A model generated the notes under the pieces. The model searched no databases and was not told the origin of the DNA. It was given only the letters and a program-made list of their open reading frames with translations. A stretch of 37,444 nucleotides of DNA from a virus. Below are positions 1 to 35,736 of this stretch, piece after piece. Each line of letters opens with the position of its first letter. Position 1 is the stretch's first letter. The position numbers and the translations under genes are program-made. The stretch lies in IMG/VR virus record IMGVR_UViG_3300022821_000059, positions 1 to 37,444 of that record; one strand, given 5' to 3'.

Positions 1-143
1 GGGAGGGGGGGGGTATCACCGGGTATTCACTTGCATTTATCCTCACCCATAGGCAATGCGTGGCAAATGGAGGCAATACCGTACTGGTACTGGGGAGTGT
101 GGCAGAACGCTACAAATGCAGGGCAATGTGGTGCAATTGAGGG
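1..143. other. Left-end noncoding stretch with GGCAAT repeats
   Basis: No gene is visible here. It begins with a run of G (1-13, one A inside), which may be a contig end or sequencing artefact. GGCAAT occurs at 52-57, 72-77 and 122-127, with related GGCAAA at 62-67 and TGCAAT near 132. It lies downstream of the last leftward gene, so it could be a 3' untranslated region, a genome terminus or spaced protein-binding repeats; nothing decides between these. Confidence 0.35.
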
Positions 144-344
144 CTAATTGGCGGCGTGCGCACCTATCCTTGTTGGCATGGTGTCGGCCAGGTTGAGCGC
201 TGCTCTTGCCTCTCCGTCCTTGCGCTCACCTTCGCGCTCAAACACATCCTGCTCGTAGCTGGTCCGGCACTGTCTGCAACGCTCCCAGTTCGGGTGGCTG
301 CAGATCAGGAGTCTGTGTAGTCGCTTCTCGCTGTCGCTGCTCAT
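144..344 (-). CDS. Hypothetical 66-aa protein with CxxC
   Basis: The last leftward gene of the window. Its ATG overlaps the stop of the upstream gene (ATGA), so it is probably translated by coupling. The protein is charged and has one CxxC pair near residue 23 (CRQC) plus another Cys nearby (LICSH), which could bind a metal. I recognise no family. Its place at the end of a run of small nuclease-type genes suggests an accessory role in DNA metabolism, but that is only context. Confidence 0.6.
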   Translation of the reverse strand: MSSDSEKRLHRLLICSHPNWERCRQCRTSYEQDVFEREGERKDGEARAALNLADTMPTRIGAHAAN

Positions 345-1628: not shown

Positions 1629-1708
1629 TATGATATTTTCAGGCACAGGGCCACGCCGTAGCAGATTTCCTTCTCCATCTTCGCGGTGTGAAGGGGGGAA
1701 CGGCCCAT
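1628..1708 (-). CDS. Possible 26-aa leader-like peptide
   Basis: A very short frame (MGRSPLHTAK to LCLKIS) linked by TGATG to the RHH gene upstream and by TAATG to the 53-aa gene downstream. It bridges the gap between them exactly, which is why it is listed. An inner ATG (MEKEICYG) is also available. It could simply be a coupling peptide that carries ribosomes across the junction. Evidence is positional only. Confidence 0.25.
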   Translation of the reverse strand: MGRSPLHTAKMEKEICYGVALCLKIS

Positions 1709-1932
1709 CAGGAGGCGCTCTCGTCGTCCGCCTTGATGCACACCTTGTCGATTCCCAGGCGCACCACGTCGGCCCTGCCCTTGAAGCCCAGGCGGGCCTT
1801 GGCGTTCTCCAGGCGGCGCTTGGTGCCCTCCCTTACCTGGATCGGCTCGAGGCGCTCTTTGAGCTTCTTCTCCCGCTTCTTGCGCTTCTTGGGCGGTGGG
1901 GCGGTGGCGTCTGCTTTGTTCGCTTCAGTCAT
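1708..1932 (-). CDS. Ribbon-helix-helix repressor-like protein
   Basis: 74 aa. The first 28 residues are a basic, Lys/Arg-rich tail (PPPKKRKKREKK). Residues 29-65 fit a ribbon-helix-helix fold: a short strand (PIQVRE), helix (TKRRLENAKARLG), turn, and second helix (RADVVRLGIDKV). RHH proteins bind DNA as dimers on short repeated half-sites and usually repress. The gene faces a region holding four copies of a 7-bp motif, one covering its own start, so autoregulation is likely. A -10 box lies only 5-6 nt upstream of the ATG and no ribosome site is visible, so the transcript may be leaderless. Confidence 0.65.
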   Translation of the reverse strand: MTEANKADATAPPPKKRKKREKKLKERLEPIQVREGTKRRLENAKARLGFKGRADVVRLGIDKVCIKADDESAS

Positions 1933-2016
1933 GTCTACTTATAATGCAGACGGACATGAGGTTGTCAACGGTAAATGGACATGAGTTTTGCTGTTGACAA
2001 GATTTATAGTCATGTC
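1929..2016. promoter_or_regulatory. Operator array: four TCATGTC/GACATGA copies
   Basis: The heptamer TCATGTC occurs at 1929-1935 and 2010-2016, and its reverse complement GACATGA at 1953-1959 and 1978-1984, with start-to-start spacings of 24, 25 and 32 bp. An additional inverted pair, TTGTCAAC (1962-1969) and GTTGACAA (1993-2000), provides -35 boxes in both directions. A fifth copy lies in the promoter at 4817-4823. The most likely binder is the adjacent RHH protein. Seen in sequence; binding is inferred. Confidence 0.6.
1938..1968 (-). promoter_or_regulatory. Leftward sigma70-type promoter of the RHH gene
   Basis: Read on the minus strand, a perfect -35 TTGACA (+ strand 1963-1968) is followed after 18 nt by TTATAA (1939-1944), or after 19 nt by TATAAG. 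Transcription would start near 1932, at the A of the RHH start codon. A motif copy (1953-1959) lies inside the spacer and another (1929-1935) covers the start, ideal positions for repression. Confidence 0.55.
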
Positions 2017-2024
2017 AGCTTATT
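1994..2024 (+). promoter_or_regulatory. Possible rightward promoter for the 88-aa gene
   Basis: TTGACA (1994-1999) is a perfect -35 on the plus strand. Ten bases later comes TCATGTC (2010-2016), the same geometry as the minus-strand promoter at 4811-4839 (TTGACC, 10 nt, TCATGTC). The expected -10 (about 2017-2024, AGCTTATT) is weak, and TATAGT (2005-2010) is a competing -10 without a good -35. If active, it would be controlled by the same operator. Confidence 0.35.
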
Positions 2025-2045
2025 GGTAACTATTGGAGGTGAAGG

Positions 2046-2312
2046 ATGGAAGGACTCGGCACATTAAAGGTTTTCAGACCACTTATCCTTGTAACTCAAA
2101 CCAGAGCTGGGCTTGCAACTGCACATGGAGGGGAAGCCTATCCGGTAGGATCCAGCGATGTTCCTGACATTTACAAGTACGTCCACAGATCGTCAGTTCG
2201 CTGCTCGGAGGGAATACTGCACTTCAACCAGCAAGATGAATGCCGAATATCCATCTACGGAATCGCTCCCGGCCAATGGACATCGTTTAAGTTCTATTCG
2301 TCTGGCGAGTAG
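2046..2312 (+). CDS. Only rightward gene; hypothetical 88-aa protein
   Basis: Starts after a strong ribosome site (GGAGGTGA a few nt before the ATG) and fills the gap between the operator region and the 3' end of the endolysin gene, overlapping that gene tail-to-tail by 26 bp. It is visibly less GC-rich than its neighbours. The protein has an N-terminal hydrophobic stretch (LKVFRPLILV), then mixed beta-type sequence with aromatic residues near the end (YGIAPGQWTSFKFYSS). No family recognised. Its position opposite a repressor-like gene invites comparison with a Cro or antirepressor slot, but it shows no clear DNA-binding fold. Confidence 0.55.
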   Translation: MEGLGTLKVFRPLILVTQTRAGLATAHGGEAYPVGSSDVPDIYKYVHRSSVRCSEGILHFNQQDECRISIYGIAPGQWTSFKFYSSGE

Positions 2313-2817
2313 GCGTCCACAGTTCCAGCCCCGTCCCCTCCATCCAGCTATCCTTGAACCCAGGCCCCGGGTCGTGGCGCGTGTCGCTTACGATGCTGTG
2401 ACGCGTCCAGAAGCGCAGGCCGGGCTTGACCGCGCACCATGTCCAGATGAGCCGCCGGAAGGCCTCATGCTGCCCTGCGTCCCGCGGGTCCTGGTCGTAG
2501 GGCCCCGGCAAGGCCAGGCCATACCAACAGTTCCAGGCGCCGGCGTGGCTTGCCCTGTGGGTCAGGGGCACGGTGAGGACGAAGTCCTGATGCCGCTTGC
2601 TCCATGCGGCGTGGTAGCTCACCCTGCGGTCGTCCCCCTCGTTGGTGGTGTAGTCGGCCACGCCTTCGTTTCGGTGGCCGCTGTGGATGATCAGCCCCTC
2701 GGGTTCGCTGTCCAGCTCGCGCAGGGCCCCCTCGAGGTACTCGTCGTCCTGCCAGATGGTGAACCCGGGCAGCCATGGGGAATCGATGCCAGCGGGGAGC
2801 CAGGCGTCACCCGTCAT
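2287..2817 (-). CDS. Endolysin, N-acetylmuramoyl-L-alanine amidase
   Basis: 176 aa, the size of a single-domain phage endolysin. It fits the Amidase_2 family (zinc amidases cutting between N-acetylmuramic acid and L-alanine): first zinc histidine in GLIIHSGH (H45), VSYHAAWS (H69), the HRASHAGAWN block (H91), and the C-terminal zinc pair in TRHSIVSDTRHDPGPGF (H140, D149). No signal peptide or cell-wall binding domain is visible, so it probably needs the holin to reach the wall. It begins directly after the holin stop (TAGATG), forming a lysis cassette. Confidence 0.82.
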   Translation of the reverse strand: MTGDAWLPAGIDSPWLPGFTIWQDDEYLEGALRELDSEPEGLIIHSGHRNEGVADYTTNEGDDRRVSYHAAWSKRHQDFVLTVPLTHRASHAGAWNCWYGLALPGPYDQDPRDAGQHEAFRRLIWTWCAVKPGLRFWTRHSIVSDTRHDPGPGFKDSWMEGTGLELWTPTRQTNRT

Positions 2818-3444
2818 CTACTGCACCGGGGGCGAGTCCACCACCTTGACCCCACCCTTGGCCGTGGTGGGGCACTTGAACCCGATGCACTTGACTGCGG
2901 GCTGTCCAGTGAGGTCAACCGGCTTGGCGCCCACGGACAGCGCCATGACCAGCACAGGACCGAGTCCCGGCACCTCCAGCGGCGCCGCCGTGGCGAACGT
3001 GCCAGCCAGTCCCACCCCGATGCCGTAGCCCGGGCCCACCTTCTCCTTGATGATGGAGTCCGCCTTGTAGCAGCGGGCCAGGTGCTCCGCGCCCGCGCTC
3101 ATCTCCTCCATTTTCTTGCAGGTGTAGGGGGTCGCCTTTCCCGCAGCGTCCACCAGGATGCCGCCGGCCTTGATGATGTCATCCCAGGGCATGGCCTTGA
3201 GGAATGCGCAGCCTCCCACGCCCAGGGAGAGCACCAGCAGCAGGGGCAGCAGCGGCGAGGAGGCCTTGACCTTGCCCCGGCTGTGCGTGTAGCCCATCGC
3301 GCCGAGGATCACCAGCACAGCGCCCACCAGCTGCCCGGACCAGTGGGCGATGGGGATGGCGCCGGTGGCCATCAGGCCGCCGAGGACCTGGGCCGCCAGG
3401 GATAACCAGAATTCAGTTGTTTTGATGCCTGATTTGATCGCCAT
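2818..3444 (-). CDS. Holin with fused lipoprotein-like C-terminal part
   Basis: 208 aa from the second of two adjacent ATGs, which is better spaced from AGGAG. The first 60 residues resemble small phage holins that begin with KTTEFWLSLAAQVLG: two membrane segments (about 12-31 and 38-55) and a SRGKVK turn. Then comes a third hydrophobic run (LLPLLLVLSLG) ending in a lipobox-like GVGGC (Cys at about 79), and a 130-residue domain with further Cys residues (YTCKK, ARCYK, KCIGFKC). An internal ATG (residue 50, MGYTHSRGK) would create a separate lipoprotein with a proper signal peptide. The C-terminal part could act as an outer-membrane spanin-like component; unproven. Confidence 0.65.
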   Translation of the reverse strand: MAIKSGIKTTEFWLSLAAQVLGGLMATGAIPIAHWSGQLVGAVLVILGAMGYTHSRGKVKASSPLLPLLLVLSLGVGGCAFLKAMPWDDIIKAGGILVDAAGKATPYTCKKMEEMSAGAEHLARCYKADSIIKEKVGPGYGIGVGLAGTFATAAPLEVPGLGPVLVMALSVGAKPVDLTGQPAVKCIGFKCPTTAKGGVKVVDSPPVQ

Positions 3445-3453
3445 CATGTCTCC

Positions 3454-3708
3454 TCACAGGTTCGCCAGCAGGTTGAGAAGGCGCGCAGGCAGCATGCCGC
3501 AGGCAGCATGCCACCCCCGGGCGTCGCTGTACAGCGGGAATCCGGCCTCCTGCAGGGCCACGATGTCACGGTAGGCCGTTCGCTGACAGCACCCCGAGAT
3601 CCGGGCCCACTCCGATGCGCGCACAGGCTGACGGCTGGCGCGGTAGAACATCAGCACCAGCTTGAGCAGGCGCAGGCTGCCCTTGATGGACTCCTTGTTG
3701 GCCTTCAT
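3454..3708 (-). CDS. Small helix-turn-helix regulator
   Basis: 84 aa. The start MKANKESIKG has a strong GGAGGAG site and overlaps the stop of the upstream gene (ATGA). Residues about 12-70 form a winged-helix/HTH_11-type unit: hydrophobic helix LLKLVLMFY, RASEWARISG, recognition-type segment CCQRTAYRDIVALQEAGFPL, then a short wing with GW. Such domains begin DeoR/WYL-type regulators; here only the DNA-binding part exists. It lies between recombination and lysis genes and could control the switch between them; no target site is identified. Confidence 0.65.
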   Translation of the reverse strand: MKANKESIKGSLRLLKLVLMFYRASRQPVRASEWARISGCCQRTAYRDIVALQEAGFPLYSDARGWHAACGMLPARLLNLLANL

Positions 3709-3893
3709 CTGCTCTCCTCCGGGGCCCGCTCCCGCGTGGTGCACAGAATCACGGACCCCTTGCCGAAGTGCCTCTCACGCCAAGCGGCAGCAGCGGCCAT
3801 GCTGGCATCCGTGCCGGCGTCCTTCTCCTCGCGGGTCAGGTGGCGGCGCGTGGGGTCGTGCGGCTCCAGGGGCTTGTGCTTGTAGGGCGCCAT
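3705..3893 (-). CDS. Hypothetical 62-aa protein
   Basis: Basic, His/Arg-rich N-terminus (MAPYKHKPLEPHDPTRRHL) followed by an Ala-rich helix and HFGKGSVILC. It is linked to both neighbours by overlaps: TGATG with the Rad52-family gene upstream, ATGA with the HTH gene downstream. No family recognised; the operon position suggests an early accessory protein. Confidence 0.55.
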   Translation of the reverse strand: MAPYKHKPLEPHDPTRRHLTREEKDAGTDASMAAAAAWRERHFGKGSVILCTTRERAPEESR

Positions 3894-4642
3894 CAGTGCA
3901 GGTCCGCTTCGGCGTTCAGCTTCTCCAGCTTCTCGATGATGCTGATCGCCGTGGCTTTATTCATGCCCGCCCGGATCTTGTCGCGGGTGTAGTCCTCCGA
4001 CTCCTCCGTCAAGAGGTCCAGCTTCAGCAGGTCCTTGATGGTCTTGATCTGCTTGGCCGTGGCGGCGTTGGCCTGGGCCTGCTCGAGCTCGGCGGCGCCG
4101 TGGTCCTGGTCGTCATCATCCGGGGGAGGCTGCGCGGCCTTCTCCTCGGGCTTGGCGCCGGCGAGCAGGGCCCACTTGGGCAGGGCAGGAGGATCCCACT
4201 TGAAGTACTTCCCGTCTTTCCCCTTGGTCTTGCCCTTCAGCTTGCCGTTGTCGTGGATGTTGGCCCACCCGCCCTTCAGATTGTACAGGTAGCGCCCGAT
4301 CCCCCACTTCACCGCGGCGCGCTTGAATGCCGCGCTGTAGCCACCCTTGACCGCCTCCACGTCCGTATTGTCGGCGCCGTCGTACTTCCAGACCCACTCG
4401 CCGTCAATCTGGACTCCGATCCCGCACATGACACCGCCGGCCGGGCCGGGCATGTAGGTGTCTGTCCAGCGCGCTGCGCCCACCACCTCGTCCAGGCGGT
4501 CCATGATGGCGCGGGAGGTCACGTAGGCCAGCACCAGCGCCCAGGGCTTTCCGTTCTTGATGTCCGCCGTCTTCACCCGCCAGGTGATGTCCTCCGCCTT
4601 AAGCGGTGCGGCCAGGGCTTCAAAGTCGATTTCATTTGGCAT
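3893..4642 (-). CDS. Rad52/22-family single-strand annealing protein
   Basis: 249 aa after an excellent ribosome site (AAGGAGG). Residues about 10-120 match the Rad52/Rad22/Sak annealing fold: ITWRVK near the N-terminus, YVTSRAIMDRLDEVVGAARW, the central WVWKYDGADN strand, then GGYSAAFKRAAVKWGIGRYLY, the typical KRAAVxxGIGRYLY helix. A Pro/Asp-rich linker (PPPDDDDQDH) leads to a helical C-terminal tail, probably for partner contact. Phage proteins of this group anneal complementary single strands in recombination and concatemer formation. It is led by the promoter at 4811-4839, which holds a copy of the heptamer operator. Confidence 0.78.
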   Translation of the reverse strand: MPNEIDFEALAAPLKAEDITWRVKTADIKNGKPWALVLAYVTSRAIMDRLDEVVGAARWTDTYMPGPAGGVMCGIGVQIDGEWVWKYDGADNTDVEAVKGGYSAAFKRAAVKWGIGRYLYNLKGGWANIHDNGKLKGKTKGKDGKYFKWDPPALPKWALLAGAKPEEKAAQPPPDDDDQDHGAAELEQAQANAATAKQIKTIKDLLKLDLLTEESEDYTRDKIRAGMNKATAISIIEKLEKLNAEADLH

Positions 4643-4783
4643 CTGGTGCCTCCTTGATAGTCAGGTTTGAAATAGGGGAAATTCCGCAGGCGCTGAGGAA
4701 GCTGGCGGCCTGGGCCTCGCTGACGTCCACGCTGGCCAGGCCCCCGCGGCCCACCACCACCCGATCTCAGTCCTTCTTTTCAT
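4632..4783 (-). pseudogene. Small gene with apparent 1-nt frameshift
   Basis: The ATG at 4783 has a strong ribosome site (GGAGGGTCACC), but its frame quickly becomes Trp/Pro/Arg-rich nonsense. The neighbouring frame, from GTG codons at 4760, reads VVVGRGGLASVDVSEAQAA and ends SNLTIKEAPDAK at 4632, overlapping the Rad52 start by 11 nt, and looks like a real protein. One extra base near the GGG at 4760-4763 would join them as MKRRTEIR-VVVGRGG, about 50 aa. Either the gene is broken, the sequence has an error, or translation starts at GTG (42 aa; AAGGA lies about 10 nt upstream). Confidence 0.45.
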
Positions 4784-4808
4784 GGTGACCCTCCGTCCTT
4801 GCTGATAG

Positions 4809-4839
4809 TCTATATTGACATGACTTTAATACGGGTCAA
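4809..4839 (-). promoter_or_regulatory. Leftward early promoter with operator in spacer
   Basis: On the minus strand: TTGACC (4834-4839), 17 nt, AATATA (4811-4816); a 19-nt spacing gives TATAGA. The spacer contains TCATGTC on the minus strand (GACATGA at 4817-4823), the same motif as in the RHH control region, directly against the -10. It would transcribe the small gene at 4632-4783, Rad52, the HTH gene and the lysis genes. Confidence 0.5.
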
Positions 4840-4841
4840 TA

Positions 4842-4873
4842 GCAGATGTTGCCGATCTGCAATTTTATTTTAA
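4842..4873 (+). terminator. Possible rightward terminator
   Basis: GCAGAT (4842-4847) pairs with ATCTGC (4855-4860) across a 7-nt loop, followed on the plus strand by AATTTTATTTTA. The stem is short. It would stop antisense rightward transcripts or be a structure between two leftward units; no rightward gene ends nearby. Confidence 0.25.
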
Positions 4874-4913: not shown

Positions 4914-5315
4914 CTACTGGCCGACCTGGCCGGTGCCGGGGAGCTCCTCCTTGATCTTGGTGAGCAGCTTCGAGACGGTCTCCTCCTTCACCTTGAGCAG
5001 GGAGGAGAGGGTCGGCAAGCTGAGGTCCGCCTTGGCCTTTGGGTCTTTCTCCTCCGCCGCGGCGAGCTCCAGGGAGGCCATGATGCCCCGCAGCTCCGCC
5101 TTTAGCTGGTCGCAGGTGCGCCGGGAGGGAGCCTTCTTCTCAACGAAGGAGACCTCCTTGCCGAAGAAGTCAGATACCGACTTGAGGATCTCCGCCTCGG
5201 TGGCATACCCTCCGTTGAGCTCCAACATCATGCCCAAGGTGGGGTGCGACCACTTCTCAATCTTGCACAGGCTATTGCTGGTGAACTGCATATCCTTGGT
5301 TTTAGCGTCAGACAT
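4914..5315 (-). CDS. Hypothetical 133-aa protein
   Basis: Good ribosome site (GGAGGGTCACC before ATG, the same leader as at 4783). The N-terminal half is mixed (WSHPTLGMMLELNGGYATEAEIL), the C-terminal half is Lys/Glu/Leu-rich and likely a helical coiled coil (LKVKEETVSKLLTKIKEEL). No family recognised. Located just before the recombination genes. Confidence 0.6.
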   Translation of the reverse strand: MSDAKTKDMQFTSNSLCKIEKWSHPTLGMMLELNGGYATEAEILKSVSDFFGKEVSFVEKKAPSRRTCDQLKAELRGIMASLELAAAEEKDPKAKADLSLPTLSSLLKVKEETVSKLLTKIKEELPGTGQVGQ

Positions 5316-5369
5316 GGTGACCCTCCGGTCTGTTGGTCAGTGGTTGATAATGCGCCGCGTGGCGCGGGT

Positions 5370-5582: not shown

Positions 5583-6050
5583 GCGGGCCAGCCTTCGGGA
5601 AGGGCCCGGTGCTCGGCTCCATCCAGCGCCAGCGGGGACTTGAGCCAGAACGGTACGCCGGACAGCTGGCAATGGGCCCGGGCATCTCTGTTCAGGCCTG
5701 GCCAGGGCCACGCCAACGCACGCCGCGATGTACTCAGGATGGGCCCGCGCAACCTCGGCAGGCTCGCCCATGATCCACCCGTACCGCTGAGGCTTGCGCG
5801 TGGTCAGGCACTTGCGCAGGCGGTTGGGGTGGAGCTTAATCTGATGCGCAGGGGCAGGTTCAATGCCGAAACCTGGGCCAGGCAGGACCTCGCCAGCCCC
5901 GTGGATGCCCTGGAAGTACCCCGTGATCATGCCCGGCAGCCAGCACTTGCGGCACCCCTCCGGCCTTTCGGCCGCAGGAAGCGCCAGCCGCGAGCACCCC
6001 GTGTATGGGCAGTTGCATGCCGTCCACCAGTCTGCTGAATTCTTGCTCAT
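5579..6050 (-). pseudogene. Decayed DUF5131 (phage Gp37/Gp68-like) gene
   Basis: The start is sound (AAGGAGG before MSKNSADWW). The N-terminal part resembles DUF5131: ADWWTACNCPYTGCSR, a GCRKCW pair, LHPNRLRKCL, RKPQRYGWIMGEP. Near 5690-5715 this frame turns Pro/Arg-rich, while the adjacent frame reads GLNRDARAHCQLSGVPFWLK and HRALPEGWP, the usual DUF5131 C-terminal signature, ending in a TGA that overlaps the next start. Joined, it is about 156 aa against roughly 220-260 for the family, so the middle is missing too. It looks like an internal deletion with loss of frame. A continuous frame 5370-6050 exists and would be read as 226 aa by an automatic caller. Confidence 0.5.
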
Positions 6051-6078
6051 CTCGTTGACCCTCCTTCGCTTGCGCGCC

Positions 6079-9285: not shown

Positions 9286-10185
9286 CTAGTCCTCCTCGTC
9301 CTCGCCCGTGTAGCAGCCGTCAAGAATGTTGGCCGGCGCCACCGGGAAGGTGGTCTGCTTGCCCTTGGTCTTGAACCCTCCACTTTTTCCGCGGGCCATG
9401 GCCGCCTCTATCTTCTCCAGCTTGGTGCGCGGGTCGCTCTTGCCCTTCTTCTTCTTGCGCAGGGCCGGGGGCGTCAGACAGTTGTCACGCCAGCCCGGGA
9501 ACCCGTCGGCCTGGTCGTCGTGGTCCTTGAAGACGAACTCACCGATTGCCCGGATCTCCAACTCCGTCTTCTTGTCCGTCTCCACCACCTTGCGCAGGGC
9601 GTCCGCCCAACTGGGGAGCTCCTTGGTGAAGTTCTTCCCATGCCAATAGGGATGATTCTCCCCCCACCAACGGGCGAGCGGTATGTATCGCTCGCTTCTC
9701 TCTTCTGCTTTAGATGGTGTTGCTGCTGCTGATGTAGATGCTGCTGCAGCTGCAGCTGCTGCTGATGGTGGATTATTCGTGACAGGGCGTGACATGGCGT
9801 GACTGTCACGGGATTCCGCTCTTTTGTCACGGGCTCGCTTTCGCGCCTGTCGGTCCGCGTCTTTGCGCCGTCTGTCCTCCAAGGCGTCTTTATCCCTGTA
9901 CTTTTCATAGTTGAGCAGGACCCACCCGCCGTCAACGGGCTCAACCCGGCGCCCGCCGTGATCAGGGGTGCGCGAGAACTCGTCGGGGTCCAGCAGCACC
10001 TGCAGCGCCGCCTTGGCCTCCTGCATATCCAGGCGCGCAGCATCGGCCAGTCCGGGCAGGGAGGACTCCACCACGCCGTCCCTGTCGCACATGGCCAGCA
10101 GGGTGATCCACAGGATCTGCACGTCCTTGCCGGACCTCCAGACGGTGGAGTGGATGATGCTTCCGAACAGCTTGGAGTAGCTCAT
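9286..10185 (-). CDS. Phage replication initiator-like protein
   Basis: 299 aa; the ATG overlaps the methyltransferase stop (ATGA). The first 90 residues resemble the winged-helix domain of phage O-type or replisome-organiser proteins (MSYSKLFGSIIHSTVWRSGKDVQ, ILWITLLAMCDRDG, SLPGLADAARLDM, DGGWVLLNYEKYRD). A basic stretch (RQARKRARDKRAE) and a poly-Ala linker follow, then a C-terminal domain (RWWGENHPYWHGKN, GWRDNCLTPPAL) and a Lys-rich tail. It would bind the origin and recruit the downstream loader. No origin iterons are clear inside the gene. Confidence 0.68.
   Translation of the reverse strand: MSYSKLFGSIIHSTVWRSGKDVQILWITLLAMCDRDGVVESSLPGLADAARLDMQEAKAALQVLLDPDEFSRTPDHGGRRVEPVDGGWVLLNYEKYRDKDALEDRRRKDADRQARKRARDKRAESRDSHAMSRPVTNNPPSAAAAAAAASTSAAATPSKAEERSERYIPLARWWGENHPYWHGKNFTKELPSWADALRKVVETDKKTELEIRAIGEFVFKDHDDQADGFPGWRDNCLTPPALRKKKKGKSDPRTKLEKIEAAMARGKSGGFKTKGKQTTFPVAPANILDGCYTGEDEED
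9717..9771. repeat. GCT/GCA triplet repeat encoding an Ala/Ser linker
   Basis: A run of GCT and GCA triplets (plus-strand view) encodes, on the minus strand, about 20 residues dominated by Ala with a few Ser and Thr, in the initiator protein. It separates the DNA-binding and C-terminal domains. Such triplet runs change length easily. Confidence 0.6.
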
Positions 10186-11171
10186 GGATTTCCTGGTCCT
10201 GTTGCTTGAGTTTCGATCACTGGTCCTCCGAGGACACGCCATGCAAGCGCAGCCACTGCTGGAACTTGCCCATTTCCAATGGCTTTAAGTCGGTCCACCC
10301 GAGAGGCCACCCCATGAGCCACTCGACCCACGTTGGGTTCAACTGCCCACCATTCTCTGGGTTGTATTGTGCCCGCCCGCTCCCCGTCTTGCGCTCTGTC
10401 CCGCTGTAGCGGCTCATCTCCATCGTGCCCATGTCCTGCATTGAGGCCCGGGGAGTCGGCCATCGGCTCGTTGGGTTGCCGTGTCCATCCTTGCCGAGCG
10501 CCGCCAGAACCAGCGGAGTCCCTCCCCCTGAAGAGCCGGAGGCCCGAGTCACCTTCTTGATCGTGTTGCAGTCCCTCACCGTAGGCGTGGGCCACATCTT
10601 CACTTCCCTGGCCAGGTTTGTCTTTGGCCTTCCGTCCCCGCGGTGAGCACCAAGACTCCCTTTGCTGTCCGAGGCGATTGGAGTTGGCCAGGATCCAGAT
10701 CCGGTCCCTCTTGTGGTTGGCGCCAACGTGGTGAGCTCCCAGCACACCCCAGCGATCATCCTTCCCCATTTCGGCCAGGTCTCCTTGAACAACTCCGAGC
10801 CCCCGAGAAGTAAGCATTGGGCTGTTTTCCACGAAGCCGTAAGCGGGTCGAACCTCGCGAATGATCCGGGCCATCTCTGCCCAGAGGCCGGACCTTGCAC
10901 CGTCGATGCCTTCCCCTTTACCTGCTGTGCTGATGTCCTGGCACGGGAATCCGCCGCTGATGACATCGACGCGCCCTCGCCACGGTCGCCCGTCAAAGGT
11001 GCAGACATCGTCCCAGACGGGGAACCGGGGCAGGCACCCGTCGGCCTGTCTTCGGAGGAGCACTGACCTGGGGTAGGCAGCATTTTCAACAGCGCAGACG
11101 GTGCGCCATCCAAGGAGGACCCCTCCCAGGATGCCTCCTCCTGCCCCTGCAAAAAGTGCCAGCTCATTCAA
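10182..11171 (-). CDS. DNA (cytosine-5) methyltransferase, Dcm type
   Basis: 329 aa starting at TTG, the only start after an in-frame TGA and before motif I; the TTG overlaps the upstream stop. Motif I LFAGAGGGILGG binds S-adenosylmethionine; motif IV GGFPCQDIS holds the catalytic Cys (C77); motif VI is ENSP (residues 115-118); motif VIII HKRDRIWIL; motif X AIGNGQVP near 297-304. It methylates cytosine, probably to protect phage DNA from host restriction; no partner nuclease is adjacent. Residues 165-270 are the target-recognition region. A second long frame covers nearly all of the gene. Confidence 0.8.
   Translation of the reverse strand: MNELALFAGAGGGILGGVLLGWRTVCAVENAAYPRSVLLRRQADGCLPRFPVWDDVCTFDGRPWRGRVDVISGGFPCQDISTAGKGEGIDGARSGLWAEMARIIREVRPAYGFVENSPMLTSRGLGVVQGDLAEMGKDDRWGVLGAHHVGANHKRDRIWILANSNRLGQQRESWCSPRGRKAKDKPGQGSEDVAHAYGEGLQHDQEGDSGLRLFRGRDSAGSGGARQGWTRQPNEPMADSPGLNAGHGHDGDEPLQRDRAQDGERAGTIQPREWWAVEPNVGRVAHGVASRVDRLKAIGNGQVPAVAALAWRVLGGPVIETQATGPGNP
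10217..11167 (-). CDS. Overprinted frame in dcm (WPTP/WVEWLMGWP type)
   Basis: 316 codons in the +1 frame within dcm, from an ATG that directly follows the upstream TGA, 4 nt from the dcm TTG. The protein (MSWHFLQGQEEASW) resembles, from memory, a family of phage proteins beginning MSWLFSQALVEEYS and carrying ARFDPLTASWKTAQC, ETWPKWGRM, repeated WPTP motifs and LNPTWVEWLMGWPLGWTDLKPL. The family N-terminus corresponds to motif I of Dcm read one base over, so the relation may be old overprinting. Whether it is translated here is unknown. Confidence 0.4.
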   Translation of the reverse strand: MSWHFLQGQEEASWEGSSLDGAPSALLKMLPTPGQCSSEDRPTGACPGSPSGTMSAPLTGDRGEGASMSSAADSRARTSAQQVKGKASTVQGPASGQRWPGSFARFDPLTASWKTAQCLLLGGSELFKETWPKWGRMIAGVCWELTTLAPTTRGTGSGSWPTPIASDSKGSLGAHRGDGRPKTNLAREVKMWPTPTVRDCNTIKKVTRASGSSGGGTPLVLAALGKDGHGNPTSRWPTPRASMQDMGTMEMSRYSGTERKTGSGRAQYNPENGGQLNPTWVEWLMGWPLGWTDLKPLEMGKFQQWLRLHGVSSEDQ

Positions 11172-11407
11172 GAGCCGTCAGCGTCCTGCGGCTTCACGGG
11201 GAGCACCATCCCGCCCATGCTGGCCGGCACGATGTCTTCGTCCAGGCAGTCCATGGCGTAGCCGATCAGCCAGTCGGCAGTGGCGATGATGGAGGGCTTC
11301 TTGCTTGAGCGAACGATCACCTGCAGGCGCAGCCGGAAGGCCTCAAACCGAGATTGAAGGTGCTCGGCCAGCTTCAGGGTGATCACATGTCTTTTGGTTC
11401 CGTCCAT
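11168..11407 (-). CDS. Hypothetical 79-aa protein, possibly DNA-binding
   Basis: Start at MDGTKRHVITLK follows AAAGGA; a GTG further upstream (11446) lacks a site. A strand (KRHVITLKL), two helices (AEHLQSRFEAFRLRLQVIV and ATADWLIGYAMDCLDE) could form a ribbon-helix-helix-like unit, but the loop is long and the match weak. It begins the replication block; its stop overlaps the dcm TTG. Confidence 0.55.
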   Translation of the reverse strand: MDGTKRHVITLKLAEHLQSRFEAFRLRLQVIVRSSKKPSIIATADWLIGYAMDCLDEDIVPASMGGMVLPVKPQDADGS

Positions 11408-11504
11408 TGATATATTCCTTTTGGTAGGTAATTTGTTATTACCCACACGAGAGGGTGTGTCAATGGATTATTTGCTGGAAAGAATATTGCAGAGATGAAA
11501 AGAT

Positions 11505-24130: not shown

Positions 24131-24784
24131 CTACAGGTTGGAGCCGAGAGTTACTATAGCAAGGCCGGCATCTCCCATGGCTGTGGATACACTGCTATCT
24201 TTCTTTACGTTGCCGAGATAGTCCTGATAGCTTCTGGCCTGGGTGGATGCCTGCAGGTCATCCATCATTGAAGTAGCCCTTCTACGCTTGTCCTTGTCCT
24301 TGATGCCAAGCTGGGTATACCCGCTGGCTGTCCTCTCCAGACCCATTTGTGTCTTCATGTTTCGATCTGCCGCCGCTGCATACGCCTTGGCCGCGGCCTG
24401 CCTCTCTAGCTGCTGGGCTACAACAGACCGCGCCTGCAGGTCCCGGGCTCCGGTGTCCCGCTGAAGCGAGGCGCCGCGATCAACGGATGCACTCCTGCCT
24501 CCCCTCTGGCCTGTTGACGCGAGAGATTGATACGCCCTGTCCTGCTGGACGCCCTGGCGCTGAGCCTGCTGTCTGGCCATGCTCTGCTCGCCGGTTGCGT
24601 AGGATCGAAGGCGATCCATGGCCAGCCGCTGCCCAGCCATGGCTTGCTTGCTGTCTCGGTATAGACCGCCAACCATCCCAGATCCGCGGCCAGTCGCACG
24701 GCCCATCCCTTCGCCAAAATAAGCACGCGGATCGGGATCGCCTATAAGGTCTCCTGGACTTAGTGCATGTGCTTCCCAACCCAT
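24131..24784 (-). CDS. Internal virion protein (217 aa)
   Basis: ATG overlaps the nozzle stop (TGATG). Gly-rich start (GEGMGRATGRGSGMVGG), then Gln/Arg/Ala-rich helices (ARQQAQRQGVQQDRAYQ, QLERQAAAKAYAAAADRN) and a short hydrophobic C-terminus (GDAGLAIVTLGSNL). Together with the next gene it probably forms a pair of small ejection proteins. No sequence family recognised with certainty. Confidence 0.5.
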   Translation of the reverse strand: MGWEAHALSPGDLIGDPDPRAYFGEGMGRATGRGSGMVGGLYRDSKQAMAGQRLAMDRLRSYATGEQSMARQQAQRQGVQQDRAYQSLASTGQRGGRSASVDRGASLQRDTGARDLQARSVVAQQLERQAAAKAYAAAADRNMKTQMGLERTASGYTQLGIKDKDKRRRATSMMDDLQASTQARSYQDYLGNVKKDSSVSTAMGDAGLAIVTLGSNL

Positions 24785-27700
24785 CAGCTTGCGCTCCTCC
24801 GCGGCCCCAGCCGCATCTCCCGGTTAAGCAGGCCAACTACAGCGGCCATCCCGGTGAACGTGAAGCTCTGCCCGGTCTGCTCCGCGTCCCTTATCCTCAC
24901 CCGAAAGCTCGTGATTCTCTGCCTATATGGTAGAGCCCTCATCAACAGGGCGTCTTCATTGTAGCTGCCAGAGCCGGCGCCGTAATACTCACCCATCTCA
25001 AAAGCGTCCAGATCAACGGTGTCCAACTCCTGCTCATCCTTCCACTCTGGGTCATTATCGTACTGGAAGGCCACCAGCAGGCGGAAATCGTCCAGGCTGT
25101 AGCCCTCCACCAGCAGCGAGTACAGGCGCTGGAAGGCGGCCAGCCCGGCGAAGTTGAAGATCCCGCTCTCCAGGGTGGTGGTGGGGCTGATCCCTCCGTC
25201 CGTGTAGGCTCCCAGTGTCTGGCCTCGGACGGCCTCTGCGGCGGCGCCAGCTCCAACCATGGCGAGTTCACCGTCAACCGTGGCGCAGTCCTTGGCCTGG
25301 CCGTTCGTCCATGTGGACCACAGGCCGTACAGGTAGTCATACACCAACACAGGGGCGTCAAGGCCATCGCTGACCCAGGCCGCGGCATGCTGGCCAGGGA
25401 GCAGGGCGCCAGAGCGGTAGGTGTAGGCCTCGGTGAAGTGGCGGACCTGGTCCCCCAATGCCGCGACGGCAAACTTGGTGCTGAGCTGGTGCAGGCCGGT
25501 GGGCGCAAGGAAGGCCAGGGCCCCGGGCAACTCCACCAGGCTCTTCTGCTTGATGCAACCCACTGCCTCGCTCACCAGGTAGGGCTCGGAGTACCCGCGG
25601 CCCAGGCCAAAGGCGCTCAGGCCGGTCCCGGTCACCCTGTAGGCGCGGTCCACCTTGAAGGCGATCAAGGAATCATAAAAGGATGCAAGAGCTGTGATGG
25701 CTCCACCCTCTGGCGGGATGTTGATGACCAGGGTGTCGCTGTGCTCTGGCGCGATGAGGTTGCTTACGCCGCGCGAGAACACCTTGGAGTAGCGGATCAA
25801 CGTGTCCGGGCGCTCAGCGTCCACCACGAAGTGCCGGCTCTGGTGGAGGCAGTGAACCTCCCCAAGCGGGGGCTGAGCGTTCTCAAGTACAGCGCCCGTG
25901 GTGTACAGGGTGGAGTTGGTGGACACGACGGCATCGGAGAGCAGGTCCGTGAAGTCCACGGTATCCAGCACCAGGCTATTGGTCCTCGTGCCCACCAGGT
26001 ACATGGTGGTGGTGGCAGCCGCTGCCTTGAGGGTCCTGTAGATCGCGATCCTGACGTTGGGCTTGTTGGTGTTGTGCAGGCACGGGCAGGTGAGCACCAC
26101 GGAGCTGTTCGGCGGCGCCCCAACGTTGATGGTCACCTGGCTGCTGGGCGCACTCTCATGGAGCAGGTTCTTCGCGTCGTACCATTGGTAGGTGTACAAG
26201 TAGAAGTGCTGGCCCTGGTCCACGGCCCCGACTGCTACGGCCGGGTTTGCCACCGTTGGGTCCTCGGGCTGCTGCAGCAGGTAGCCGAGCTCCACAACGG
26301 TCACCCCGTCCCAGTATTGGGGCAGGCTCCCCCCGATGATCAGGGCCTCCTCCGTCTCGATGCTCTCCACCTGGTCAGGGTTGCTTATCTCCAGGGATGC
26401 CCCGGCGATGGTGTCTCCGTCCTCGTCAAGGATGCGGGCGGCCGATGTGAGGTATCCCCCGCTCTGGTCCAGCAGGATGGTGTCTGCGATGCCCCAATCG
26501 TTTGTGTTGTTGTTGCTTGCGCTGGAGAAGATCAAGGCCTTTCCGGCAAGCAGACCGCTCAGATCGATGATGTAGCAGTCCAGGGCATCGGGCTGGGTAA
26601 CACACAGGGAAACCAGACCGCGGTCCAGCCATGGTTTGCTAATAATCTGGGCCTTGCCTTGGATCTTAGTGAATCCGCCATCTACCGGGATAGCGGGCAC
26701 GGTGAAATCGAGATCAACCCTGTACACCTGCGGCTTGAGCGTCCCGCCGTCGTACCAGGTGTAGAACAGGTAGCCCGTAGCGGCTGACAGGGCGATCCCG
26801 GTCATGTTCGCCGCCTCCTCCCCTGCGTTCATAGTAGGCGGTACGGCCGGCGCCAGGGGACTGCCACCAACGGCGAAGGGGGCGAAGGTCTGTGTCAGGT
26901 CCGTGAGGTTGTAGCCGGTGACGTAGATACGCAGCGTTGTCCTGTCAAAGTAGGCACCCACCCACAAGGTAGGACTCTGGAGCCAGCAGGCCACGGCGTC
27001 TGCGTCTGCTATGGCCTCCGTGGTGGAGGTGTAGGTAAGCGTATTTGCGTCAACCCGCATGATCCGCACCGAGGCGCCGGCGGCATCCCTTGCGATTCCC
27101 TGAAATACCCTCCCGCCTATGCTCACCACGTCAAGCTGAAAGCTGCTAGTTGCAACCAGGCCGGTATTTACCTCTGCCGAAATCGCTCCCGCCGCAGTGA
27201 CGATCCTGTATCGGAGTTTGGCCCCTCCGGCTGCCGCGATGTAGAAACAAAACACCTCCAATGTATCCAGGGCCACGATCAAGCGGGTATGCATGGCGGA
27301 AGCGCCAGTCTGCAGGGTCTCCTCGGCTATCATCTGGCCGCTGGTGGTGTTGTAGGAGCGGATCACGGCGTTGTTGGTGGCGGTGAGGCTGTTGATCTCC
27401 TGGGAGCACCTGACCTCGAGCCTGGCAGCCTCTATCCTTGCTGTGTTGGGCTGCTGTACGGCCACGCCCTGCTGCACCGCGTGGCGCCCCTGGATGACGC
27501 TCCATATCGCCAGGGTATCCGCCTGCCGCATCACCCCGGTGGACCATGCATCGCCCTCAAAGGCTTTTATGGCCCGGTCCAGCACCACCAGGTCACCCTT
27601 GTAGACCGCGGCGTGGGGGTCGGAGTAGGAAGCCGGCAGAGCATCCAAACCAAAGCGCTTGGTAATGGCCCCTTTCTTGGTCCAGCGTGCATTCTCGACC

Positions 27701-27813
27701 TTGAGCCAGGACTGGTCCACCAGCTGCGGATTGGTGCCGGTATCCAAGCCCACCTGTCCAGCCTTCAGCCCGATGACCTTCTTATCCAGGCCGGTACGCT
27801 TGCGGACGGTCAT
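24784..27813 (-). CDS. Tail nozzle / tubular protein (1009 aa)
   Basis: A large beta-rich chain. An N-terminal segment (GLDTGTNPQLVDQSWLKVENARWTKKGA, beginning the fold shared by nozzle proteins) leads to repeated beta units. The middle-to-late region has the signature of podovirus nozzles: FVVDAERPDTLIRYSK, GGAITALASFYDSLIAFKVDRAYRVTG, VGCIKQKSLVELPGALAFLAPTGLH. Other nozzles (T7 gp12, P22 gp10) are 470-800 aa, so this is long. It would close the tail end and anchor fibres. Start ATG shares bases with the upstream TAG/TAA. Confidence 0.65.
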   Translation of the reverse strand: MTVRKRTGLDKKVIGLKAGQVGLDTGTNPQLVDQSWLKVENARWTKKGAITKRFGLDALPASYSDPHAAVYKGDLVVLDRAIKAFEGDAWSTGVMRQADTLAIWSVIQGRHAVQQGVAVQQPNTARIEAARLEVRCSQEINSLTATNNAVIRSYNTTSGQMIAEETLQTGASAMHTRLIVALDTLEVFCFYIAAAGGAKLRYRIVTAAGAISAEVNTGLVATSSFQLDVVSIGGRVFQGIARDAAGASVRIMRVDANTLTYTSTTEAIADADAVACWLQSPTLWVGAYFDRTTLRIYVTGYNLTDLTQTFAPFAVGGSPLAPAVPPTMNAGEEAANMTGIALSAATGYLFYTWYDGGTLKPQVYRVDLDFTVPAIPVDGGFTKIQGKAQIISKPWLDRGLVSLCVTQPDALDCYIIDLSGLLAGKALIFSSASNNNTNDWGIADTILLDQSGGYLTSAARILDEDGDTIAGASLEISNPDQVESIETEEALIIGGSLPQYWDGVTVVELGYLLQQPEDPTVANPAVAVGAVDQGQHFYLYTYQWYDAKNLLHESAPSSQVTINVGAPPNSSVVLTCPCLHNTNKPNVRIAIYRTLKAAAATTTMYLVGTRTNSLVLDTVDFTDLLSDAVVSTNSTLYTTGAVLENAQPPLGEVHCLHQSRHFVVDAERPDTLIRYSKVFSRGVSNLIAPEHSDTLVINIPPEGGAITALASFYDSLIAFKVDRAYRVTGTGLSAFGLGRGYSEPYLVSEAVGCIKQKSLVELPGALAFLAPTGLHQLSTKFAVAALGDQVRHFTEAYTYRSGALLPGQHAAAWVSDGLDAPVLVYDYLYGLWSTWTNGQAKDCATVDGELAMVGAGAAAEAVRGQTLGAYTDGGISPTTTLESGIFNFAGLAAFQRLYSLLVEGYSLDDFRLLVAFQYDNDPEWKDEQELDTVDLDAFEMGEYYGAGSGSYNEDALLMRALPYRQRITSFRVRIRDAEQTGQSFTFTGMAAVVGLLNREMRLGPRRSAS

Positions 27814-29283: not shown

Positions 29284-30552
29284 TTATACGAAGTCGAACC
29301 TGCACCACGAGCGGGGGCGCTTGATCCCGAACTGGGGCCACGCCACCAGCCGGAACTCACGGGCCAGGGAGCTCTCCATCGGGCGGCCGGACTGAGCCTG
29401 CGGGCCCGCCCAGTGGGGGACGCTGCTGATGCTCACCACCTGCAGCTTGTCCTTGTCGCCAGCGTAGATGCTGTCCCGGGGGCAGTTTCGATCCCCGATG
29501 CACTCGATGATCCCGGCCGGGGTAGCGACCTTGATCACCTCGTAGCCCAGGGTGGCCACCACCTTGCCGTTCTCGGCCTTGAAGGGCACCTGCTTGTAGT
29601 ACCGCTCCACGCTGCCGACGGCGTTGATCAGGCGCCGGATGCGGAAGGGGTTCATGAAGCAGGTGTTCATCACGCCGCCGCCGCGTGAGACGTACTCGCC
29701 GGCCAGCTGCAGGGCGTCATCCTCGTTGAAGCCGGCGTAATCGCCGCCAGCCGCATCGGAGAAGTAATACCCGGCCAGGCTCGTCCGGTTGACCACCCGG
29801 TTGTAGCCGAAGATGGTCGAGTTTGCCGTGAACTCGGCGGTGGTGGGGATCCAGGCAGCGAAGCCCAGGAAGCTCAGGCGGTCGGCCGCGGTGACATAGT
29901 CACCCTCGGTGAAGATGAGGTCCCCAGCGGCGATACCGGCCGCCAGGCTGTTCGGGGAGAGGGCCAGGGTGACCGACCCGGCCAGCTCGTCCACGCGGGT
30001 GACGGCCAGCGGGGTGGTGCTTCGCAGGGCAGAGGCGGCATTCAGGGCGAAGACCAGCTGTTGGCCCTCGTGGAAGTTGACCACGTCCAGGGCGTCAGCG
30101 AACAGCAGGGTGGTGGTGCCCAGGGCCGCCGTGGCGCTGATGGCCCCGAGGGAGCCTGAACCATCACCGAACATGTTGCGCCCGCAGCTGTTGCGAAGGG
30201 CGGTCAGCGCGCCGTCCGTCTGCACCTTCATGGTGTTTCTGATGGCCTTGGCGCTGGTGTTGGAGCCCGCCAGCAGCTTCTCGCCGATCTGGATCACGCT
30301 GTGATCATCGGCAAAGGTCATCGGGAACTTGGCATGACGCACCCGGCCGGCGTTGCGCTGGGCCACGGCGAAGGTGTTGCTCCGCCCCGGGATGTCGTAC
30401 TCGACGTAGAACGAATAGTCCTCGCCTCCGCCATCGGTGGACTTCGCGGCGGCCATCCAGGCCGGGTTGTAGTTGGCAACGGTGCTTTCGAGACGCCAGG
30501 GCGCGTACATGTGCTTGAGTGCGTCCCAGAGTGCGTAGGTGGTAACAGCCAT
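29284..30552 (-). CDS. Major capsid protein
   Basis: 422 aa after CAGGAG. N-terminus (TTYALWDALKHMYAPWRLESTV) and internal pieces (SVIQIGEKLLAGSNTSAK, GDYVTAADRLSFLGFAAW, SRGGGVMNTCFMNPFRIRRL, MESSLAREFRLVAWPQF) fit an HK97-like coat protein of P22/podovirus type. It builds the head shell on the scaffold-like protein upstream. The ending RSWCRFDFV is unusually aromatic. Identification rests on gene order, size and composition. Confidence 0.72.
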   Translation of the reverse strand: MAVTTYALWDALKHMYAPWRLESTVANYNPAWMAAAKSTDGGGEDYSFYVEYDIPGRSNTFAVAQRNAGRVRHAKFPMTFADDHSVIQIGEKLLAGSNTSAKAIRNTMKVQTDGALTALRNSCGRNMFGDGSGSLGAISATAALGTTTLLFADALDVVNFHEGQQLVFALNAASALRSTTPLAVTRVDELAGSVTLALSPNSLAAGIAAGDLIFTEGDYVTAADRLSFLGFAAWIPTTAEFTANSTIFGYNRVVNRTSLAGYYFSDAAGGDYAGFNEDDALQLAGEYVSRGGGVMNTCFMNPFRIRRLINAVGSVERYYKQVPFKAENGKVVATLGYEVIKVATPAGIIECIGDRNCPRDSIYAGDKDKLQVVSISSVPHWAGPQAQSGRPMESSLAREFRLVAWPQFGIKRPRSWCRFDFV

Positions 30553-31617: not shown

Positions 31618-33519
31618 CTATTGTGGGATTACTGGCTCGGGTAAAACATCCGGGGGCATCCCCGGGGGCATTCCTTGGGGTGGAGCGGGTGGGCCGCCGG
31701 CGCCCTCTGGCGGCATCTGCTCCGCTGCCTGCATCACTTCCATCTGCATCTGGCGCTTGGCTACCTCCTCCTCCTGCATGGCCTGGGCCTGATCAATCCA
31801 GTCCTGAAGGAGGCTGATCCGGTCCTCCGGGTACTTGTACGACTTGGCCCGGAACATCGCGGCAGACACCCGGTCGATGATCCCCTGCTGCATCACCATG
31901 TAGGGCTCAGGGCTCTGCTCCTCGCCTTCCAGCATCTCCTCGATCTGGCGGTCCACATCGTCAATGGCCGCCGTGGCCAGGCTGTCGGAGTGCTCCAGGT
32001 CGGGGAAGGAGAGCAGCTTGCGCGCCTCCTCCTTGCTTGTGACGAATCCGCCCTTCTCCAGCCGCTCCACCGTCTCCAGGCGCCCCGTGGGGGTGATCGG
32101 GAGGAACGAGGTGGGGAACACCTGCAGCTCGTAGGCGGTGCGATCCAGGTCAATCTCAGACCACTTGATCTCGCTGTAGCCGTTCTTGGTCCTGGATCTG
32201 CTGACGTGGTCCCCCAGGTCCTTGCATGCCTCAACCGTCAGGTCCGCGATGTCCATGAAGAAGTTCTCCCAGCTGGTGGACAGCAGGGCATGGCGCCCGG
32301 TCTCAAGGTCGGCCAGGGTATTAAGCGCCCGGCCCGACTCGATCCCGGCAGGCTTGACGCTGGTGGCGCTCATCTGAGAAACGCCCTCGCTCTCAAAAAT
32401 CCACTCTCGGAGTTGGCCTACAAACCTGAAGACCTCCGAGTTGATGCTGGTGGGCATCTCCACCACGGGTTTGACGTTGCCCTCGTACTCCACCAGGTCC
32501 CCATTGACGTTGCGGATCTTGTCGGGGTTCAGCTTCGCATCCTTCGGGGCGATGATCTTGGCATTACTGAACAGGTGCATGGCTCCCTGGACCCGGCGCA
32601 AGAGCTTGTTCAGCTCCATCTGAAGGGGCTCCTCACTCTCCATGACGCCCTGGCTGTAGAAGCCCAGCACCGGCTCAGACCATCGGAGGAAGGCGAACGG
32701 GTAGTGATCTCGGTCGTACTTCTCCTTGTACAGGGTCGCGCCCTTGATCACGCAGCAATGCTTGCCGTCCCCAGCCTTGGGCCCGCTGGGGAGGTGCCAA
32801 CCCTCGATCACCTCGATGATGTCCGTCACCCGGGCCACGGACCCGTCACCGGCCGAGACCTCATCGGTGAAGTCCCCGATGGCGCCCATGATCTCCTCTT
32901 CCTTGTCCGGGTATCGGGCCTTGAGCACGCCGGCGCTCACATAGGCCACCTGGTACAGGGTGCGCGGGATCTCAGCGGTGAGGTAATCGGTCTCCGGGAC
33001 GATGATCTGCCCGGGGAACACCCGCTCGAAAACAACCTCTCCGTCCCTCGCGTAGACGGCCATGGCCCCCAGGTCCATGATCCCGGCGTCGTGGAACACC
33101 TTTACGGCCTTGCGGTAGACGTTGCCCTTGTACCACTCGCCCTGGACGGCCTTCTGCATCTGCTTGGCCTGGCGCTGGAGCTTCCAGGCGTCCGGGTCGC
33201 TGATGCTGGTCAAAAAGGTAGGGGTGATCTTCTGAGCCGCGATGCGGGCGGCCAGGGTCTGCACGCACGACCGGGCAGGGTTCAGGTAGAGCTGCTTTTC
33301 GCCCTTCAGCGCGTTGCGCCACCTCGTGTCCTCATCAACCTCGGTTCCAGGAATCCATCCTGAAACGTCCTTGTTGAGGTAGGCGGACATGTGCCGGCGC
33401 AGCTTCACATTCCGCTGATCGATGTCCTGGCGCAGCTCCCCAATGGTCTCGTAAACGCCCAGGTGTGGGGTTTTTGTCTCCCACCAATGCAGGTTCGATT
33501 TCTCATTATTAGAAGTCAT
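31618..33519 (-). CDS. Portal protein
   Basis: 633 aa from MTSNNEKSN (AGGTGAG site), overlapping the terminase end by 11 nt. Features include RRHMSAYLNKDVSGW near the start, PARSCVQTLAARIAAQKITP, GVMESEEPLQMELNKLLRRVQ (a typical portal helix), and the VSQMSATSVKPAGIESGRALNTL segment common to portals, where ring tunnel helices follow. The tail is Gln/Met/Pro-rich (PPAPPQGMPPGMPP). It forms the dodecameric gate at one vertex and docks the terminase. Confidence 0.75.
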   Translation of the reverse strand: MTSNNEKSNLHWWETKTPHLGVYETIGELRQDIDQRNVKLRRHMSAYLNKDVSGWIPGTEVDEDTRWRNALKGEKQLYLNPARSCVQTLAARIAAQKITPTFLTSISDPDAWKLQRQAKQMQKAVQGEWYKGNVYRKAVKVFHDAGIMDLGAMAVYARDGEVVFERVFPGQIIVPETDYLTAEIPRTLYQVAYVSAGVLKARYPDKEEEIMGAIGDFTDEVSAGDGSVARVTDIIEVIEGWHLPSGPKAGDGKHCCVIKGATLYKEKYDRDHYPFAFLRWSEPVLGFYSQGVMESEEPLQMELNKLLRRVQGAMHLFSNAKIIAPKDAKLNPDKIRNVNGDLVEYEGNVKPVVEMPTSINSEVFRFVGQLREWIFESEGVSQMSATSVKPAGIESGRALNTLADLETGRHALLSTSWENFFMDIADLTVEACKDLGDHVSRSRTKNGYSEIKWSEIDLDRTAYELQVFPTSFLPITPTGRLETVERLEKGGFVTSKEEARKLLSFPDLEHSDSLATAAIDDVDRQIEEMLEGEEQSPEPYMVMQQGIIDRVSAAMFRAKSYKYPEDRISLLQDWIDQAQAMQEEEVAKRQMQMEVMQAAEQMPPEGAGGPPAPPQGMPPGMPPDVLPEPVIPQ

Positions 33520-35253: not shown

Positions 35254-35736
35254 TTACGACTGGTAGATCCTGGGCTGCTGGGCCTGCTCGTCGGCCCGGT
35301 CGGCATCCTGCTCCGCCTTGGCCGCGACGTGGTTCTGGTACTCCTCAAAGAGGGTGATCCCGATCTCGTAGTTCTCCAGATCCAGGCCCTCGAGGATCAC
35401 ACCAGCGATGGTGGAGGCGTCCACCAGGGCCACCAGCTCCTGGTCAACCTCGTTGGGAACGTGCATGGGTTCCGACCTGATCAGCACCACGTCCCCCTCC
35501 TTGTACAGCATCGGGGCCCGCTCGCCAGTCGGGAGCATGCGGCCCAGGCCGACGGCCGCCACCATGCACAGGTTCATCGTGTACTTGGCGGCCTCCTTCT
35601 CCGGGATGAGCAGGCCCTGGGTGCCGTCCTTGGCCGTGAAGGCGTCGCCGCCCACCAGCATCTCACTGGTCCTGCGCATGGTGCGCACCAGGTACTGACC
35701 CTCGCCCGGGCCGATCTTCAGCTTGAAATCGCTCAT
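35254..35736 (-). CDS. GroES-like co-chaperonin-type protein
   Basis: 160 aa after GGAGGTAG. Central elements recall a Cpn10 fold: GLLIPEKEAAKYTMN, MVAAVGLGR, YKEGDVVLIRSEPM and a closing VDASTIAGVIL strand, where GroES has its last beta segment. A C-terminal helix (FEEYQNHVAAKAEQDADRAD) is extra. Phage GroES analogues (T4 gp31 type) help GroEL fold capsid protein; the position just ahead of packaging and head genes fits. The mobile loop is not obvious, so the call is moderate. Confidence 0.5.
   Translation of the reverse strand: MSDFKLKIGPGEGQYLVRTMRRTSEMLVGGDAFTAKDGTQGLLIPEKEAAKYTMNLCMVAAVGLGRMLPTGERAPMLYKEGDVVLIRSEPMHVPNEVDQELVALVDASTIAGVILEGLDLENYEIGITLFEEYQNHVAAKAEQDADRADEQAQQPRIYQS

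Follow-up and report, generated by a model that had tools for sequence, protein, structure and literature searches.

A heptamer shared by three predicted promoters of a podovirus-like phage suggests an operator for a small ribbon-helix-helix-like regulator

The repressor Arc of phage P22 binds one contiguous 21-bp operator placed between the -35 and -10 boxes of a promoter, and is autoregulated. In phage lambda, the repressor gene cI and the gene divergent from it share the operator cluster OR, and the cI message made from PRM is leaderless. Viral regulators of the ribbon-helix-helix (RHH) type are also described from SIRV1 (SvtR) and SSV1 (F55), where they bind the promoter of their own gene and a few more viral promoters and delay the genes concerned (PMC5569661). 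Here we describe a viral locus with a comparable arrangement, in which five copies of the heptamer TCATGTC lie on three predicted promoters (Table 1). We judge the chances slightly better than even that all five are sites of one regulator, likeliest the adjacent 74-aa RHH-like protein, and that this regulator controls three early promoters.

The DNA analyzed is IMG/VR virus record IMGVR_UViG_3300022821_000059 (37,444 bases, hereafter the window), with nearly all genes on the leftward strand. A methyltransferase and the replication and recombination genes occupy the low coordinates, and the gene set as a whole points to a podovirus-like phage. Among the roughly 40 genes scanned, a part of the gene complement, none matched an integrase; lysogeny is thus not indicated by the genes tested, and on this ground we put aside the idea of a lysogeny switch proper. 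Just upstream of the terminase gene lie genes for a GroES-like co-chaperonin (35254-35736, leftward; phrog_3188, E 1.1e-5) and a DHH phosphoesterase-like protein (35782-36705, leftward; phrog_4771, E 1.1e-29). Two long leftward ORFs in different frames, 10182-11171 and 10217-11167, each hit families of phage DNA methyltransferases (phrog_363, E 1.7e-63, and PF00145, E 6.6e-24, for one; phrog_1008, E 2.3e-32, for the second) and form an apparent overprinted gene pair that overlaps by ~950 bp.

Table 1. Coordinates of the genes, heptamer sites and predicted promoters discussed in the text (positions in the window; + rightward, - leftward).
Feature	Positions	Strand	Remarks
74-aa basic protein, probable RHH autorepressor	1708-1932	-	Phage codon usage; strand-helix-helix pattern at low confidence
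Heptamer site 1, TCATGTC	1929-1935	+	Overlaps start codon of 74-aa gene
Leftward promoter of 74-aa gene (predicted)	1938-1968	-	TTGACA, 19 bp, TATAAG; rank 1 of 74,808
Heptamer site 2, TCATGTC	1953-1959	-	In spacer of 74-aa gene's promoter
Heptamer site 3, TCATGTC	1978-1984	-	Centered between two divergent -35 boxes; dyad center 1981
Rightward promoter, probable	1994-2023	+	TTGACA, weak -10 (GCTTAT or similar); rank 39 of 74,808
Heptamer site 4, TCATGTC	2010-2016	+	10 nt downstream of rightward promoter's -35
88-aa protein, no recognized function	2046-2312	+	Strong Shine-Dalgarno GGAGGTGAAGG; no family match
N-acetylmuramoyl-L-alanine amidase (endolysin)	2287-2817	-	PF01510, E 8.5e-6, just above cut-off
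Membrane protein, perhaps holin/spanin-like	2818-3447	-	Putative, from hydrophobic N-terminal segments
HTH_11 winged-helix protein	3454-3711	-	PF08279, E 7.8e-7, above cut-off
Erf/Rad52-like single-strand annealing protein	3893-4642	-	phrog_1097, E 2.9e-66; PF04098, E 1.6e-13
Small leader ORF, probable, 42 aa	4632-4760	-	GTG start; overlaps Erf gene start; judged from translation
Leftward promoter of recombination/lysis transcript, probable	4809-4839	-	TTGACC, 19 bp, TATAGA; rank 37 of 74,808
Heptamer site 5, TCATGTC	4817-4823	-	In spacer of recombination/lysis transcript's promoter
Internal virion-type protein	24784-27813
Capsid-like protein	29284-30552
Portal-like protein	31618-33591
Terminase large subunit	33509-34990

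The same phage is represented among viral contigs by L004-L006, which cover only 17.7-37.4 kb, and its relatives L007 and L008 (~70-73% DNA identity) reach no further than the structural half. No relatives were found among GTDB contigs or among phage and plasmid proteins, and the contigs related through Erf (L002, L003, L020-L099) encode nothing homologous to the 74-aa, 88-aa or HTH_11 proteins. Phylogenetic footprinting of the heptamer sites failed; none of the contigs of relatives that were found spans the region. Contig L006 extends 681 bp beyond the window, and GGCAAT/AATTGCC words cluster at both phage sequence ends, in window positions 1-150 and in positions 1-90 of L006 within this extension, where 250 bp hold 7 of 21 copies against 0.14 expected. 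These clusters suggest that the two ends of the phage are contiguous, with a second repeat region (an origin, late promoter or packaging site) located there.

Four copies of TCATGTC or its complement GACATGA fall within 88 bp beside the 74-aa gene, with the fifth at 4817-4823, exactly where the preliminary description had placed its proposed operators. Across the window the heptamer occurs 11 times against 4.8 expected, a count that one of 100 shuffled sequences reaches. Of the 11, six do not belong to the proposed operators and fall without exception in coding DNA, in about the number due to chance; the remaining five lie in or at the edge of the intergenic DNA, which amounts to ~2.7 kb (binomial P 0.0013). 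At the density of the window 0.026 copies would be expected per 88 bp (P ~2e-8, calculated post hoc). None of 5000 dinucleotide shuffles of positions 1925-2045 (121 bp) held any 7-mer four times, which rejects a chance origin of the cluster, with the caveat that 7-mers repeated four-fold within 90-100 bp are also met in other parts of the window, as they are in Markov simulations. Four-fold clusters are in themselves no rarity in a G+C-rich window, and those others are mostly overlapping or G+C-rich simple repeats; the heptamer cluster stands out because it is not of low complexity, lies in intergenic DNA of 40% G+C and sits on promoter elements.

The bases around the heptamers agree as well. 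All five sites fit an extended consensus, TCATGTCnRYnT (purine, pyrimidine and T downstream). The window has a single further copy that conforms, at 13605 inside a gene. Sites 1 and 4 belong to a direct repeat (1927-1942/2008-2023, 14 of 16 bases), sites 2 and 3 have 11 of 12 bases in common, and an inverted repeat made by the divergent pair of -35 boxes (1962-1975/1987-2000) is centered at 1981, as is site 3. Sites 1-4 are 24, 25 and 32 bp apart in mixed orientation, neither contiguous nor uniformly phased. A further copy at 3444-3450 was excluded from the operators: it overlaps one of the start codons within the lysis operon, nothing around it resembles a promoter, and it does not fit the extended consensus. 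Judged at the level of sequence, the same word recurs at the promoter of the putative regulator itself and at other phage promoters, and a shared operator is very probable.

The likeness of two of the sites reaches beyond the heptamer. As the preliminary description had observed, TTGACA at 1994-1999 and TTGACC at 4839-4834 are each followed after exactly 10 nt by TCATGTC. This agreement is part of a 29-bp module, TGCTrTTGACnnGnnTTAnAGTCATGTCA, whose two copies (1990-2018 and 4846-4818), 2.8 kb apart, are identical without gaps at 23 of 29 bases, a match equaled by one of 1000 shuffled pairs. The module TTGACNNGNNTTANAGTCATGTCA had no exact match in the viral contigs scanned, from which this phage's own records may have been excluded. 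A likeness of such extent could reflect a promoter that was merely duplicated, without operator function, the other heptamers then being due to chance. We consider this very unlikely, given that the heptamer is kept exactly at three sites (1, 2 and 3) that are not part of the module, differ in context and occur in both orientations, and that none of the 5000 shuffles reproduced them.

A weighted scan for sigma70-type promoters ranked 74,808 positions, and a separate strict scan was scored out of 12. First in the weighted ranking stands the leftward promoter of the 74-aa gene, which scored 10 in the strict scan and was read there as TTGACA, 16 bp, CATTAT. With the 19-bp and 16-bp spacers alike, transcription is predicted to start at the ATG or no more than 2 nt away from it, and the gene has no Shine-Dalgarno sequence, whereas several neighboring genes have one; the 74-aa message is thus probably leaderless. 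This is the truly good promoter of the three. The earlier description of the promoter at 4839 as good was overstated: it and the promoter at 1994 both have a good -35 and a weak -10, and neither was found as good in the strict scan. An alternative rightward promoter (TTGTTC at 1916, 18 bp, TATAAT at 1940-1945) ranks third. Elsewhere, a good promoter-like site at 11463 on the leftward strand (TTGACA, 17 bp, AATAAC; rank 5), upstream of the gene at 11168-11446, carries no exact heptamer and is a candidate unregulated early promoter. A rightward terminator-like hairpin with a T-rich tail lies beside the Erf promoter (4842-4870; -8.1 kcal/mol, z -2.4); no rightward gene ends there, and the hairpin might serve to stop antisense transcription begun at the 1994 rightward promoter.

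The geometry of these promoters bears on who binds the heptamers and to what effect. The best-scoring -10 elements stand 19 bp from the -35 for the 74-aa and Erf genes and 18 bp for the 88-aa gene, and those of the promoters at 1994 and 4839 are weak, as might be expected if the heptamers bound an activator that remodels a long 19-bp spacer before a poor -10 in the fashion of MerR. Binding by such an activator, or by a host regulator or nucleoid protein, is in our estimate quite unlikely: the region showed no MerR-like gene, the 74-aa promoter has its 16-bp alternative, and the heptamer has no clear dyad, unlike MerR operators. That the 88-aa and Erf promoters have weak -10 elements would nonetheless fit activation. 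Returning to a phage-encoded repressor, sites 2, 4 and 5 lie between the -35 and the -10, so that a repressor bound there would compete with RNA polymerase.

The 74-aa protein had been assigned to the RHH family in the preliminary description, an assignment that is plausible. Codon usage in its ORF is typical of the phage (GC3 0.89, log-odds 0.55 per codon). What marks the protein as RHH-like is the residue pattern IQVR-helix-GFKGRADVVRLGI together with the predicted helices, the core LEPIQVREGTKRRLENAKARLGFKGRADVVRLGIDKVCI resembling a strand, a helix, a G-containing loop and a second helix. A single-sequence AlphaFold model, of low confidence (pLDDT 63), places an extended segment at residues 28-34 and helices at 35-48 and 53-65 with a loop between them, the order expected of an RHH protein, a type that dimerizes through its N-terminal strand; the sole Foldseek match of the model, the RHH protein NikR, is not significant (E 5.4, probability 0.08). 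On the other side, no Pfam or NCBIfam profile, RHH models included, matched the protein at E up to 10, the RHH models PF01402 and PF17723 matched nothing in the window, and phage, viral, plasmid and GTDB collections held no homologue. The phage family phrog_876, annotated as a transcriptional repressor, gave a marginal E of 0.024 that a genome search did not reproduce. RHH proteins carry a G-X-S/T/N loop motif between the helices, and with RelB, bases inserted between half-sites abolish repression, no spacing being tolerated (PMC2812701). The loop of the 74-aa protein, GFKGRAD, lacks the motif, and the heptamers, with their intervals of 24, 25 and 32 bp, are not the adjacent, regularly spaced short half-sites of this family. 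Single dimers on the near-palindrome GTCATGTC, or degenerate neighboring half-sites, offer a possible way round the problem of spacing. We therefore retain RHH as a reasonable reading of the sequence, with membership unproven, and the 74-aa protein as a plausible RHH protein and binder.

The sole recognized DNA-binding domain above cut-off in the region belongs to another protein, the HTH_11 winged-helix protein, whose gene is part of the transcript that starts at 4839 and is headed by site 5. Were this protein, the first candidate among other phage proteins, to bind the heptamers, it would feed back on its own and the divergent promoters; we regard this as unlikely, since four of the five sites are 1.4 kb away and adjoin the 74-aa gene instead, and since the heptamers here are single, whereas the operators of winged-helix proteins tend to be clear inverted repeats. 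We infer that the binder is the 74-aa protein, a prediction that we hold to be reasonably likely. Other genes of the region call for brief comment. The 88-aa gene, which overlaps the amidase gene tail to tail, is the sole rightward gene recognized, and its status as a gene is uncertain because its coding log-odds is -0.08; its foreign composition (GC3 0.49 vs 0.79-0.89 in most others), combined with the strong Shine-Dalgarno, makes it resemble a recently acquired moron. A ribosome-binding stretch, GGAGGGTCAmC, recurs in near-identical form before the starts of three genes, at 4770-4800, 5312-5330 and 6048-6065.

Taken together, these features suggest how a 74-aa repressor could act. A strong and probably leaderless promoter would make the repressor early, and as it accumulated it would fill sites 1-3, at the start site, in the spacer and just upstream of the -35, and shut its own promoter. 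Occupancy of site 4 would shut the divergent 88-aa gene, and occupancy of site 5 the transcript that runs from Erf to the amidase, which encodes the Erf recombinase, the HTH_11 protein and the lysis genes. The outcome would be a timed, self-limiting early burst, with the recombination and lysis genes waiting until the repressor falls or is diluted by replication. We infer repression rather than activation here, and with it the role in timing. Coordinated control of the three promoters, as first proposed, is well supported by the sequence as far as the common operators go; the RHH nature of the 74-aa protein and its part as binder are unproven, and against them stand its want of an RHH profile and of homologues, the absent loop motif and the isolation of the sites. 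A bolder reading, which we hold to be doubtful, is that the protein founds a new repressor family, a sequence orphan in a phage with no recognized lysogeny genes, that uses isolated asymmetric heptamers (TCATGTCnRYnT) at irregular spacing to time recombination and lysis as one regulon and not to maintain lysogeny.

If the favored explanation is true, the locus provides a compact regulator-operator pair with a simple seven-base code, in a phage group for which no cultured relative was found, and an example of a phage that places recombination and lysis genes alike under a single early repressor. Among known systems it most resembles Arc and Mnt of phage P22, RHH proteins, in having a small basic phage protein beside its operators, an operator between the -35 and -10 boxes and proposed autoregulation; it differs in having no sequence match to them, five dispersed single heptamers and no recognized antirepressor gene. 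With lambda cI and OR it shares a divergent gene pair with a common operator cluster and a probably leaderless repressor message, but the 74-aa protein is of a different predicted fold, no Cro-like partner was recognized and no integrase was among the genes tested. Like SvtR and F55, the protein is a predicted viral RHH-like regulator acting at its own and a few other promoters, whereas theirs are archaeal promoters with longer inverted or tandem repeat motifs, and no homology to the 74-aa protein was detected (PMC5569661). A small autoregulated viral repressor with few operators is thus a well-known type of switch, built here of component parts not seen before.
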